This document shows, one piece after another, positions 1,815 through 64,000 of a DNA stretch of 64,000 nt; positions within the stretch are counted from its first letter, which is position 1; every line of letters begins with the position of its first letter. The translations under genes were made by a program, and so were the position numbers. This DNA comes from Bacteroidota bacterium (GTDB lineage: Bacteria > Bacteroidota > Ignavibacteria > Tepidaquicellales > Tepidaquicellaceae). The stretch lies in the NCBI GenBank assembly GCA_018266835.1, contig JAFDZP010000006.1, positions 62,001 to 126,000 on the forward strand. Direction: 5' to 3'. The notes under the pieces are model-generated. The model made no database searches and was not told where the DNA came from. It saw only the letters and a list, made by a program, of their open reading frames with translations.

Positions 1815-2390
1815 TTAAGCATAGTTATTTTGAAGTACATGCGCACCTTTGTGCCTTATGCTGATTGTAAGATAAAACATACCGAGCATTAGAAGAAGCA
1901 ATGCTGACCATAATGTAAGGAGCTTTTCACCAAATGGAGGTACTAATAAAATGACAAATGAAAATATAATCCCCGCAATACATAAAGCTGTCAGCGCTCC
2001 GCGGCTCATCCATCCGAAAGATTTGAATTCAACAACTCTCCCAATAATTGCAACACATCTGAACAGAAGCCATAATCCTGTGAACATAGGAACAATTGTT
2101 GCCGCGACGATTGGAGCAGTAAAGAGCACGATGACAATAACTATATTTATAAGACCGAAGCCTATATAGAATTTCCATTCCCAAAGAGTATTGATGTTTG
2201 CAACGGCGAATAGTATTTCAAAAATGCCACCGCCTAAAAATAACAATCCGAACCAAACAGTTCCGCCAAAGAAAGCTGCAGTAGGATCGCTTAAAGTGAA
2301 AGCACTTAGGATTACGAATAAAATTCCTGATGCTATTATAATTCTTCTATTGAGTTTTACACGAAGAAGTGAGGAAAGTGCCTGATTCAT
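1815..2390 (-). CDS. HdeD-like DUF308 membrane protein
   Basis: This 191-residue protein is almost entirely hydrophobic, with about six membrane segments arranged as hairpins (starts near residues 17, 42, 70, 93, 128 and 157). The pattern and repeats such as a Gly-rich first segment followed by LWFLFR-type loops match the DUF308/HdeD family of inner-membrane proteins. HdeD is linked to acid resistance in enteric bacteria, but the molecular function of the family is not known and cannot be read here. A short charged N-terminus (MNQALSSLLRVKLNRR) precedes the first helix, giving an N-in topology by the positive-inside rule. It is isolated from its neighbours by about 100 bp on each side. Confidence 0.75.
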   Translation of the reverse strand: MNQALSSLLRVKLNRRIIIASGILFVILSAFTLSDPTAAFFGGTVWFGLLFLGGGIFEILFAVANINTLWEWKFYIGFGLINIVIVIVLFTAPIVAATIVPMFTGLWLLFRCVAIIGRVVEFKSFGWMSRGALTALCIAGIIFSFVILLVPPFGEKLLTLWSALLLLMLGMFYLTISIRHKGAHVLQNNYA

Positions 2391-2491
2391 TTTAGTAAGT
2401 TTAAATTTATCACAGGTAAACTACCGGTTAAAAAAATAAAACCTTAATTTAAACAAGCCCCTTGTCTTATAAATTAACTTATTACTTTGAA

Positions 2492-3517
2492 CTACTTTAT
2501 TTTTGATGAGTAGTTTTTATCAAAATATTTCAGATACTCACCGCTCATGACTTTGCGCCACCACGGTTCATTATCTATGTACCACTTAATTGTTTTTTCT
2601 ATTCCTTCAGGAAACTGATACTTCGGCGCCCATCCAAGTTCACTCATAATCTTGCTTGAGTCTATTGCATATCTTCTGTCATGTCCCGGTCTGTCTTTTA
2701 CATAGGTAATTTGTTCTTCACCTTTGCCGAGCTTTTCAAGTATAAGCTTTACAATATCTATGTTGTACCATTCATTATTTCCGCCGATGTTATAAACTTC
2801 ACCTATCTTTCCTTTTTCAAGAACAGTTGCAATACCCGAGCAGTGGTCTTCCACATACAGCCAGTCGCGGACATTCTTGCCGTCACCGTATACGGGAAGC
2901 TTTTCTCCGTCCAATGCTTTTGCAATCATCAGAGGAATTAACTTCTCAGGAAACTGATAAGGTCCGTAATTATTTGAACACCTTGTAATTAATATCGGAA
3001 GTTTATGTGTATGACAATAAGCATTACAGAGTAAATCTGCCGATGCCTTGCTGGCTGAGTAAGGACTATTTGTTGTAAGCGGAGTAAGCTCCGTAAATTT
3101 TATTTCTTTCTTATCTTCAGGAAGCGAACCGTAAACTTCATCGGTTGAAACCTGCAGATATTTTTCAAGCTTTAAATTTTTTGCAGCATCAAGTAATACC
3201 TGTGTACCAAGTACATTCGTAACGACAAACTCTCTTGAGCCCAGAATGCTTCTATCCACATGAGACTCTGCTGCGAAATTTATAATTGTATCTATGTTGT
3301 TATCCTTAATCGTACTTTCAACAACATCCTTATCGCAAATATCACCTTTTATAAATTTATAATTGGAATGATTTTCTATATCAGTAAGATTTTCAAGATT
3401 GCCCGCATAAGTTAGCTTATCAAAATTGAAAATTTTATAATTATAATTCTCTAACATGTATCGAACAAAGTTCGAACCTATAAATCCTGCCCCGCCGGTT
3501 ACTAAAATATTTTGCAT
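2492..3517 (-). CDS. rmlB: dTDP-glucose 4,6-dehydratase
   Basis: This 341-residue enzyme of the extended short-chain dehydrogenase family converts dTDP-glucose to dTDP-4-keto-6-deoxyglucose, the first committed step toward dTDP-rhamnose and related surface sugars. The Rossmann motif TGGAGFIG is at residues 7-14. The dehydratase triad TDE is at 125-127, and the Tyr/Lys pair of YxxxK is at 153/157. The family segments NNYGPYQFPEKLIP and VRDWLYVEDHC are also present. The length is normal. The start codon lies 22 bp after the stop of the upstream outer-membrane protein gene, so the two may be cotranscribed. No rmlA, rmlC or rmlD lies nearby, so the rest of the pathway must be elsewhere. Confidence 0.95.
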   Translation of the reverse strand: MQNILVTGGAGFIGSNFVRYMLENYNYKIFNFDKLTYAGNLENLTDIENHSNYKFIKGDICDKDVVESTIKDNNIDTIINFAAESHVDRSILGSREFVVTNVLGTQVLLDAAKNLKLEKYLQVSTDEVYGSLPEDKKEIKFTELTPLTTNSPYSASKASADLLCNAYCHTHKLPILITRCSNNYGPYQFPEKLIPLMIAKALDGEKLPVYGDGKNVRDWLYVEDHCSGIATVLEKGKIGEVYNIGGNNEWYNIDIVKLILEKLGKGEEQITYVKDRPGHDRRYAIDSSKIMSELGWAPKYQFPEGIEKTIKWYIDNEPWWRKVMSGEYLKYFDKNYSSKIK

Positions 3518-3539
3518 CTTGAGTTGAGTTAAATTAAAA

Positions 3540-4268
3540 TTATCTGAAGAACAGTCCTACATTGATTGTAAGATTTACATTAAAGCCGTCAGGTTTCACT
3601 CCGTCAGGAACGCCTGTGGTTACAACATTATCTTCAACTTTCCAGTCACCGTGTGATGATAATAGATATCCTGCATTTAATTTAGCATACATAAATCCTG
3701 TAAGCTTTGCTCCGAAACCTAATGTCGGCTGCGCTGTAAAAACTCTCGTCTTTAACTCACGCGAGTAATCTGATGTTGAGCCGTTATAATTTCCCCAGAT
3801 GTTAGACCATGTTGGAGCGGTTGTGCTGCTTTGATATAGCTTCAGTTTATATTCGCCTGTACCAAATGAAGAGCCGAGAGTAACATCAAGTACTGAACCG
3901 AATCTCATAACATAATCAAGTGTTAATCCGCCTTCGCCATATTCTACAGTTGCTGTTTTTGTATATGATAAATTGTTTGAAGTTACTTTTCCTGAAGTAG
4001 TTGTAGAAAACCCTCTTCCGAATCCTCCGATGCGAAGCCATTTAAAATTTTTAAATGGAATATCAATAAATCCGCCGCCGCCAAAGTAAACGACTCCGTT
4101 GCTCAAAGCAGGAAGTCCTGAACTCACTAACATTGTATTAAGGTCATCGAATTTTACACCCTGGTAACCGACTGTAGGACCGCCGCCGATTGAAAAAGCT
4201 CCACCCGGAAGCTGTGCAAATGCATTTGCTGAAATAATCAGAAGAATGGTTAAAAGTATTTTTTTCAT
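3540..4268 (-). CDS. Predicted outer-membrane beta-barrel protein
   Basis: This 242-residue protein begins with a clear signal peptide (MKKILLTILLIISANAFA, cleavage near AFA-QL). The rest is rich in Gly, Ser, Thr and aromatic residues in alternating patterns, ending with LTINVGLFFR. That terminal strand, with aromatics near the end, is typical of small outer-membrane barrels. No family could be named. It has the look of conserved outer-membrane beta-barrel proteins of Bacteroidota, but no enzymatic motif is visible. It lies 22 bp upstream of rmlB. A perfect 14-bp palindrome sits 62 bp before its start codon. Confidence 0.6.
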   Translation of the reverse strand: MKKILLTILLIISANAFAQLPGGAFSIGGGPTVGYQGVKFDDLNTMLVSSGLPALSNGVVYFGGGGFIDIPFKNFKWLRIGGFGRGFSTTTSGKVTSNNLSYTKTATVEYGEGGLTLDYVMRFGSVLDVTLGSSFGTGEYKLKLYQSSTTAPTWSNIWGNYNGSTSDYSRELKTRVFTAQPTLGFGAKLTGFMYAKLNAGYLLSSHGDWKVEDNVVTTGVPDGVKPDGFNVNLTINVGLFFR

Positions 4269-62729: not shown

Positions 62730-63185
62730 TTATTTAAAAAGTAATTTTGCTTTAATTTCTGAAATATCTTTGAATGAATATTGTATATTTCTTAATAGAT
62801 TTTTTTTCTTCTCATCTCTTACTTCAAGCTCAAACGTTTCATTTTCGGGATTCAGCTCAACAAGCTTTCCTGTTACCTGAGTGTTATCGTTCAAAGTAAC
62901 TTCCATCGGACGCCCTTTGTGCTTAACCATCTGCCAGAAATATTTATACGGCTTATCTGCTCCGGGTGAGGAAACTGATATTTTGGCAATATCGTTTTCT
63001 TTGTAATTCTCGTCAAACTCTTTGTTTATTCCTCTCGTAATCGCGGCAATCTCATCTATTGAAAAGTTTTCTGTTCTGTCGATGTATATTTCAAGAATCT
63101 TGTTGTCCTTATCACCTTTTCTCACCAGTTCAATAACTTTGAAGTCGGAGTCTTTAAAGAAGTTCTCAATTATGTCGTTTATCAT
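62730..63185 (-). CDS. rimP: Ribosome maturation factor RimP
   Basis: The protein of about 151 residues helps assemble the 30S subunit. The first domain has LEIYIDRTENFSIDEIAAITRGI, and ISVSSPGADKPYKYFWQMVKHKGRP is the family's typical link. The start at 63185 is chosen because the upstream in-frame ATG (63230) would translate through a terminator-like hairpin and add 15 residues that do not fit the family. It is the first gene of the operon. Confidence 0.92.
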   Translation of the reverse strand: MINDIIENFFKDSDFKVIELVRKGDKDNKILEIYIDRTENFSIDEIAAITRGINKEFDENYKENDIAKISVSSPGADKPYKYFWQMVKHKGRPMEVTLNDNTQVTGKLVELNPENETFELEVRDEKKKNLLRNIQYSFKDISEIKAKLLFK

Positions 63186-63531: not shown

Positions 63532-63645
63532 GGGGGCGCGCCTGTCCCGCTTCCAGCGGGACTCAAGTGCATTTTGTGAATTGAATTCTTCAATTCACAA
63601 GATGCATTGCCCGTTCCGACTCCGCCGGAACGGAGGCGCGCCCCC
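63532..63645. repeat. Four-way-junction-like inverted repeat element
   Basis: A perfect 12-bp outer stem (GGGGGCGCGCCT at 63532-63543 with AGGCGCGCCCCC at 63634-63645) encloses three hairpins. Arm 1 is 7 bp (63544-63550 with 63556-63562). Arm 2 is 18 bp with one G-T pair (63568-63585 with 63589-63606). Arm 3 is 8 bp (63611-63618 with 63626-63633). The outer stem and arms 1 and 3 are GC-rich in otherwise AT-rich DNA. It has no coding potential and no gene of its own. Confidence 0.75.
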
Positions 63646-63650
63646 AAAAA

Positions 63651-63832
63651 TGTAACAATAATGTGACTTTAGTATTTTCAAAAGAACAAAACCCGACTAT
63701 TTCCCGACTTTAATAACAAAATTTGCTTTTATTAAAAGAATGCAACAATAATGCGACTTTTTTACGACTATTTTACAAAGTTTAATTTCTCCATTTTTAG
63801 TTCAAAATTAAAGAATGTGACAATAATGTGAC
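63651..63832 (-). repeat. TGTGACAATAA-type repeats at 11-bp spacing
   Basis: On the plus strand the core N-GAC (or N-AAC) begins at 63653/63664, 63693/63704, 63743/63754/63765 and 63818/63829; neighbours in each group are exactly 11 bp apart. The last pair (TGTGAC at 63816 and 63827) ends 25 bp before the FKBP start codon. These are reverse-complement relatives of the AGTCGGA pairs at 4358-4672. Confidence 0.55.
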
Positions 63833-63857: not shown

Positions 63858-64000
63858 ATGAATAAACTAATAATACTAATATTTTCCCTTATTTTAATTG
63901 CCGGATGCAGCAAAACCGGTAAAGAAATCACAACTGCTTCAGGACTTAAATACACTGATATTAAAGAAGGTACAGGAGCCGCACCTTCAAAAGGTAAAAC
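63858..64000 (+). CDS. FKBP-type peptidyl-prolyl isomerase lipoprotein (partial)
   Basis: Only the first 47 codons are in the window. The start MNKLIILIFSLILIAGCS is a lipoprotein signal with the lipobox LIAGC, so the protein should be lipid-anchored after cleavage at Cys. It continues with ASGLKYTDIKEGTGAAPSKG, the usual beginning of an FKBP-type prolyl isomerase domain. The rest is cut off by the window end. A pair of phased TGTGAC boxes lies just upstream. Confidence 0.75.
   Translation, partial: MNKLIILIFSLILIAGCSKTGKEITTASGLKYTDIKEGTGAAPSKGK

Follow-up and report, generated by a model that had tools for sequence, protein, structure and literature searches.

The four-arm element at positions 63532 to 63645 of the window, by which we mean the whole 64,000-nucleotide stretch of DNA that was analysed, belongs to a family of repeats that is restricted to one genus and carried by two genomes, its own (G000) and a sister genome (G001). 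The explanation that we favour, with a probability of about 0.6, is that the members are non-autonomous cruciform repeats in which the four-arm DNA junction is what is conserved, and which are kept palindromic by hairpin-templated correction, by selection, or by both.

Structure of the element in the window

The element and its neighbours are as follows.

62730 to 63185, minus strand: rimP-like gene, the left neighbour (a homologue with 69% identity adjoins nusA in the sister genome)
63532 to 63645, plus strand: the whole four-arm element (family member G000:C6:125532-125645; MFE z -12; matched by covariance models R1 with E 4.3e-18 and R2 with E 2.3e-13)
63532 to 63543, plus strand: 5' arm of the outer stem, GGGGGCGCGCCT, 12 bp, perfect pairing with 63634 to 63645
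63544 to 63562, plus strand: hairpin 1, GTCCCGC..GCGGGAC, 7 bp, or 8 bp with a TCC triloop
63566 to 63608, plus strand: central hairpin, 20 pairs including two G-T, TTC triloop
63611 to 63633, plus strand: hairpin 3, CCGTTCCG/CGGAACGG, 8 bp, 7-nt loop
63634 to 63645, plus strand: 3' arm of the outer stem, AGGCGCGCCCCC, pairing with the 5' arm
63858 to 64000, plus strand: start of an FKBP-type peptidyl-prolyl isomerase gene, the right neighbour, which continues past the end of the window (the sister genome has a homologue in the syntenic position)

The initial annotation had placed a four-way junction with a perfect 12-bp outer stem at these coordinates, and both the coordinates and the closed junction proved correct, with a z of about -12 whether the element was folded as RNA or as DNA. 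Its view that such a fold is very unlikely to arise by chance was borne out: the MFE as RNA was -82.2 kcal/mol against -36.4 (sd 3.8) for shuffled sequences (z -12.1), none of 200 shuffles being as good, and the MFE as DNA was -52.2 (z -12.4). The inner stems of 7, 18 and 8 bp that it listed were all found, except that the 18-bp stem (63568-63585 / 63589-63606), described there as perfect, is 94% complementary with one G-T inside; a second G-T just beyond extends the central hairpin to 20 pairs. The contrast between GC-rich arms and AT-rich surroundings was also seen (61% GC in the element, 35% in the whole window), as were the divergent arrangement of rimP and the FKBP-type gene and the absence of any transposase or protein gene attached to the window element.

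In the interval from the element to the FKBP gene, TGYRACAATAATGYGAC occurs three times (63651-63667, 63741-63757 and 63816-63832 of the window). With the window locus counted, 14 matches were found in a sample of about 675 kb from both genomes (the sample behind the motif counts being about 0.7 Mb of the two genomes), so that TGYRACAATAATGYGAC may be a regulatory motif or a repeat that recurs.

A family of copies in two genomes

A nucleotide search (BLAST) with the 114-mer gave no second full copy in the element's own genome and a partial match (L003) in the sister genome, the one other genome of the genus that was covered; at L003 the outer stem and the four-arm layout are those of the window element and the inner arms are different. 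Two more places in the sister genome share the outer stem of the window element, and a sequence-free structural scan yielded copies with a different outer stem. The 114-mer search was thus too sequence-bound, and a covariance model was needed. Model R1, built from the first four copies, detected 11 copies in the own genome and, in the sister genome, about 15, with a best E of 2.6e-20. A further model, R2, included all 49 pairs, and when the lists of the two models were joined, the totals were 12 and 16 (about 28 copies). The proposal in the initial annotation that a covariance-model search of this genome and its relatives might reveal further copies was therefore fruitful.

The family was not matched by the covariance model in any of 42 other genomes of the order, one further genome among 391 was matched in a class scan at E 1e-5, by a weaker and differently built element, and in a phylum sample of 396 genomes at E 1e-4 the own genome alone was matched; these three runs used stricter filters, by which weaker relatives may be missed. 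Pattern scans for the outer stem returned more than 200 stretches. Folding singled out none but the known copies as four-arm elements, and the remaining stretches look like chance in GC-rich DNA. Searches of the open literature for four-way-junction and Ignavibacteria palindromic repeats (most subscription journals being outside their scope) found no published account of these elements, and nothing relevant was found on GTCATTCTGA.

When 27 copies were folded, 26 showed the same plan: an outer stem that mostly has 10-12 bp, then hairpin 1 with about 8 bp and a loop of 3 nt, a central hairpin in which about 20-22 bp are capped by a loop of 3-4 nt, and hairpin 3 with 7-8 bp and a loop that is mostly 3 nt, and 7 nt in the window copy. 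The junction usually contains 0-1 unpaired base, and a few copies shift pairs between arms. The exception to the plan is G001:C1:72020, in which the central arm is long and irregular. Few letters recur: the outer stem has GGCGC, hairpin 1 has GTCCCG, the central hairpin has AATTGAA/TTCAATT at its apex, and hairpin 3 often has GAACC; the window element shares its apex and its GTCCCG with most copies. Among individual variants, the hairpin 1 stem at L265:1501-1622 (G001:C41:171644) holds an inserted second palindrome, and at L251:1501-1609 (G001:C44:55434) neighbouring arms have equal bases that would permit branch migration of the junction.

The loops keep their type. Triloops account for 66 of the 81 hairpin loops of the copies, and GNA or its complement TNC was found in 51 of these 66 triloops. 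For background hairpins from both genomes the count was 27 of 156, with runs of N left out; because the copies are related, P-values for this difference overstate its significance. DNA mini-hairpins with GNA triloops are unusually stable (PMC4686876).

Compensatory changes and the choice between DNA and RNA

In the eight copies that align nearly without gaps, 95% of cells pair and 39 of the 49 pairs have changed on both sides, which are the compensating changes that the initial annotation had named as support for a structured RNA. The covariation score of these eight copies was 0.724, as compared with 0.205 for shuffled data (none of 500 shuffles as high) and 0.10-0.15 when the partners were slid; the shuffle test can be inflated by relatedness, which the slid control retains, and part of the excess over the slid control is expected because the structure was derived from one of the eight sequences.

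Covariation is normally taken as a sign of a functional RNA, and the initial annotation had listed a structured RNA among its options. A regulatory RNA such as a 3'UTR or leader element, with selection acting on the fold of the transcript, would agree with the strong covariation (0.724), and the many copies that closely follow a stop codon would be transcribed. In the ordinary RNA fold of the element strand there were also 17 G-T pairs against 8 A-C, although this procedure favours G-U. When G-U was forbidden in folding, which puts G-T and A-C on an equal footing, the pairs across the copies comprised 1202 Watson-Crick, 9 G-T, 8 A-C and 10 others (about 98% Watson-Crick), the G-T and A-C counts being small. 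Selection on a transcript should tolerate G-U and not A-C, whereas in DNA both are one mismatch viewed from either strand. Therefore, the similar numbers of G-T and A-C, together with the GNA/TNC triloops, indicate that a strand-symmetric DNA structure, and not an RNA, seems to be what is kept. Furthermore, conserved unpaired bases are absent, the copies occur in both orientations relative to genes and some lie between divergent genes, and there was no Rfam match at the gathering score, the microRNA matches being far below threshold. On these grounds, a structured regulatory RNA is an unlikely explanation of the family.

A family with extreme covariation and no RNA signature would clearly illustrate that covariation can be maintained by DNA itself, and would call for caution in RNA discovery that rests on covariation.

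Retention, rewriting and gain or loss at matching sites

Three elements were found at matching positions in both genomes, so that the stems are conserved at such sites; a lack of stem conservation in orthologous intergenic regions would have counted against the initial annotation by its own terms. Two of the matching pairs are flanked by several conserved genes on either side, and the third, in which the elements are 77% identical, has one conserved neighbouring gene. The third pair aligns without gaps, its outer stem and side hairpins being nearly unchanged. Rewriting has affected both sides of its central arm: there are 14 Watson-Crick changes that are two-sided, and 5 changes are one-sided. 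At another matching pair, the identity of the elements (0.585) is like the mean for unrelated copies (0.606), whereas the proteins encoded on either side mostly share 66-93% identity. Elements must be rewritten rapidly where they stand, or be replaced by other copies.

Elements are also gained or lost, since the sister genome has no element in the intergenic stretch that is syntenic to that of the G000:C2:1133501 copy. Between rimP and FKBP, too, the sister genome has no such element, but this interval is filled by another gene and so is not a clean empty site; this extra gene (L273, about 2240-3870, G001:C46) lies on the strand opposite FKBP and apparently encodes a large NTPase-like protein. 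No two copies are more than 81% identical, and there is thus no sign of recent movement. Inspection by eye of the flanks of 26 copies made no direct repeat (target duplication) evident, the comparison of syntenic sites gave a diverged site without the element but no clean empty one, and no gene flanked by elements was found in the loci read.

These observations bear on the possibility that the element is a DNA site recognised by its shape. In that case a structure-specific protein of the host would bind the extruded junction or cut it, and the complementarity of the arms would be maintained by nothing but selection. The constant arm lengths, the retention at matching sites despite rewritten arms and the near absence of unpaired bases at the junction are what such a site would show. 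However, pure selection would leave more one-sided intermediates than were seen, the element-free syntenic sites show that single copies are dispensable, and no candidate for the protein was identified. It is therefore improbable that selection of this kind is the whole explanation.

Position of the copies relative to genes

According to mechanical ORF calls, 12 of the 26 copies start 1-30 bp past a stop codon, and one copy lies between convergent genes, 9 bp from either stop. Elaborate terminators, or bidirectional ones, might be expected at such positions. Other copies, including that of the window, are located between divergent genes, and a simple hairpin would suffice for termination; since most copies have no adjacent T-run, they are not ordinary terminators, and we consider this explanation very doubtful. 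A chance fold or an assembly artefact has practically no chance of being correct given a z of about -12, retention at syntenic sites and about 28 copies in two separate assemblies, the copies in the second genome having already refuted it.

In the own genome, one contig (G000:C2, 44% of the assembly) carries 10 of the 12 copies. Other palindromes were noticed during reading of the loci: a block of large palindromes (AGCTTCGTAAGGAAGC...GCTTCCTTACGAAGCT and neighbours) lies just upstream of a variant four-arm element at L247:11741-11992 (G001:C1), and a palindrome consisting of CCCGCTTTAGCGGGA followed by GAGGGG recurs in both genomes (L001:2640-2680, and upstream of the L289 element).

Proposed mechanism

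Dispersed copies that have no genes, often follow stop codons and are present at some syntenic sites and absent from others agree with the option of a non-autonomous REP- or MITE-like repeat in the initial annotation. We infer that ancestors of the family spread as small non-autonomous elements, the single strand of which would have folded into a clover, as proposed for REPINs, and that the spreading enzyme acted in trans and may now be absent or unrecognised. No partner transposase was found for the family. A RAYT-type driver was rejected for the own genome, which has no Y1 transposase gene (PF01797); four weak or partial matches were present in G001, and Y1 genes are present in many relatives that have no element. 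An IS110-type enzyme, considered as a further partner that might act on junctions, was also rejected, as a DEDD transposase (PF01548) was found in neither G000 nor G001.

In quasipalindrome correction, a polymerase that has stalled uses one arm as the template for the other, and inverted repeats become more perfect (PMC7202029). Complementarity between the arms of resident copies may be maintained in the DNA itself, mainly through this hairpin-templated process during replication, which would rewrite one arm from the other and thereby produce changes on both sides simultaneously. The near-perfect complementarity of the arms is best explained by such correction, and its lack of a preference for G-U agrees with the observed numbers of G-T and A-C. 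Correction alone would leave unexplained the arm lengths and the outer stem, the halves of which are about 83 bases apart. It is thus likely that selection for a foldable junction contributes, and this selection probably helps to hold the arm lengths and the DNA-triloop type of the loops.

A more far-reaching alternative is that the elements form a class of chromosomal sites read by shape, in which only the four-arm junction is conserved, through arm-to-arm copying of DNA combined with selection via a structure-specific protein. We put this forward tentatively, as possible and not as probable; if it is true, arm lengths would be fixed, sequence would be largely free, and recognition would be by shape rather than by sequence. 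For the cruciform repeats that we favour, the matching loci of the two species could be a natural system in which to measure hairpin-templated correction.

Comparison with known repeats

The only match outside the genus in the class scan (G262, L296) is a four-arm element with longer loops, which is the fullest copy of a second type of repeat, AGATTCTTC...CAGAATGACA. This copy (L296:1504-1604) has AGATTCTTC/GAAGAATCT as its outer and CAGAATGACA/TGTCATTCTG as its inner sequences, together with a CCCGAC/GTCGGG hairpin, and resembles the present family in the order of outer stem, CCCGAC/GTCGGG hairpin, central stem and second hairpin. In contrast to the family, this second type retains the sequence of its outer and central stems and has a long central loop. 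The half-site pattern AGATTCTTC-N-CAGAATGACA is intergenic and was found in 95 of 396 phylum genomes, a single genome having as many as about 90 matches, while a reversed control had zero matches in the genomes listed. Full four-arm elements were rare among the half-sites read (4 strand-wise matches, in 2 places, for 25 half-sites). The spacers of half-sites (L305-L324) often resemble small hairpins. Four-arm layouts may be shared more widely among bacterial repeats, although the loci read included just one clean complete example of the second type.

The hairpin and double-hairpin elements of mitochondrial genomes are also small, sometimes GC-rich, dispersed and intergenic, but in those of sponges the stems are conserved and the loops vary (PMC2800124), whereas in this family the stems vary in matched pairs and the loops keep their type. 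The MITEs ERIC, Correia/NEMIS and RUP are about 100-200 bp long and non-coding, with terminal inverted repeats and strong predicted folds (PMC2229807). The family likewise has terminal inverted repeats, the outer stem being 10-12 bp in nearly all copies, and no ORF attached. However, these MITEs keep their sequence (PMC2229807), while the arms of the family vary and their complementarity stays, and no clear target duplication or TA termini were seen.

The GTAG- and CGTC-tagged REPs are palindromic and lie mostly downstream of genes, between convergent or unidirectional genes, as many of the present copies do; those of the CGTC type are reported from Bacteroidetes and Chlorobi, have no known dedicated transposase and are mostly head-head dimers (PMC3733652). 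Their tag is unpaired at the end of a single hairpin of 20-40 bp. In the family there is no unpaired tetranucleotide tag or CCA tail, GTCCCG of hairpin 1 starts inside the paired junction, and the element is a single four-arm unit and not a dimer of one REP.

The closest likeness is to REPINs, which are inverted REP doublets with mobility tied to RAYT transposases (PMC3116915). REPINs are short gene-less extragenic palindromes of about 100 bases or slightly less, and have been described in a clover configuration that consists of side hairpins and a hairpin of the central spacer, in which compensatory changes are common (PMC3116915); a clover fold with compensatory changes was found in the family as well. 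Unlike REPINs, the family has no conserved 16-mer, has 12-16 copies per genome and an outer stem of 10-12 bp, and has no associated RAYT in the own genome. Nor is the element made of two inverted copies of one REP, the identity of hairpin 1 to its own hairpin 3 (0.51) being like that to hairpin 3 of other copies (0.52). As the side hairpins are mutually unrelated, the element cannot adopt the single long hairpin that a REPIN forms. This raises the question of which agents besides RAYTs spread or use clover-shaped repeats. The four-arm element is not a REP doublet, but would work like a REPIN that is locked in its clover form.
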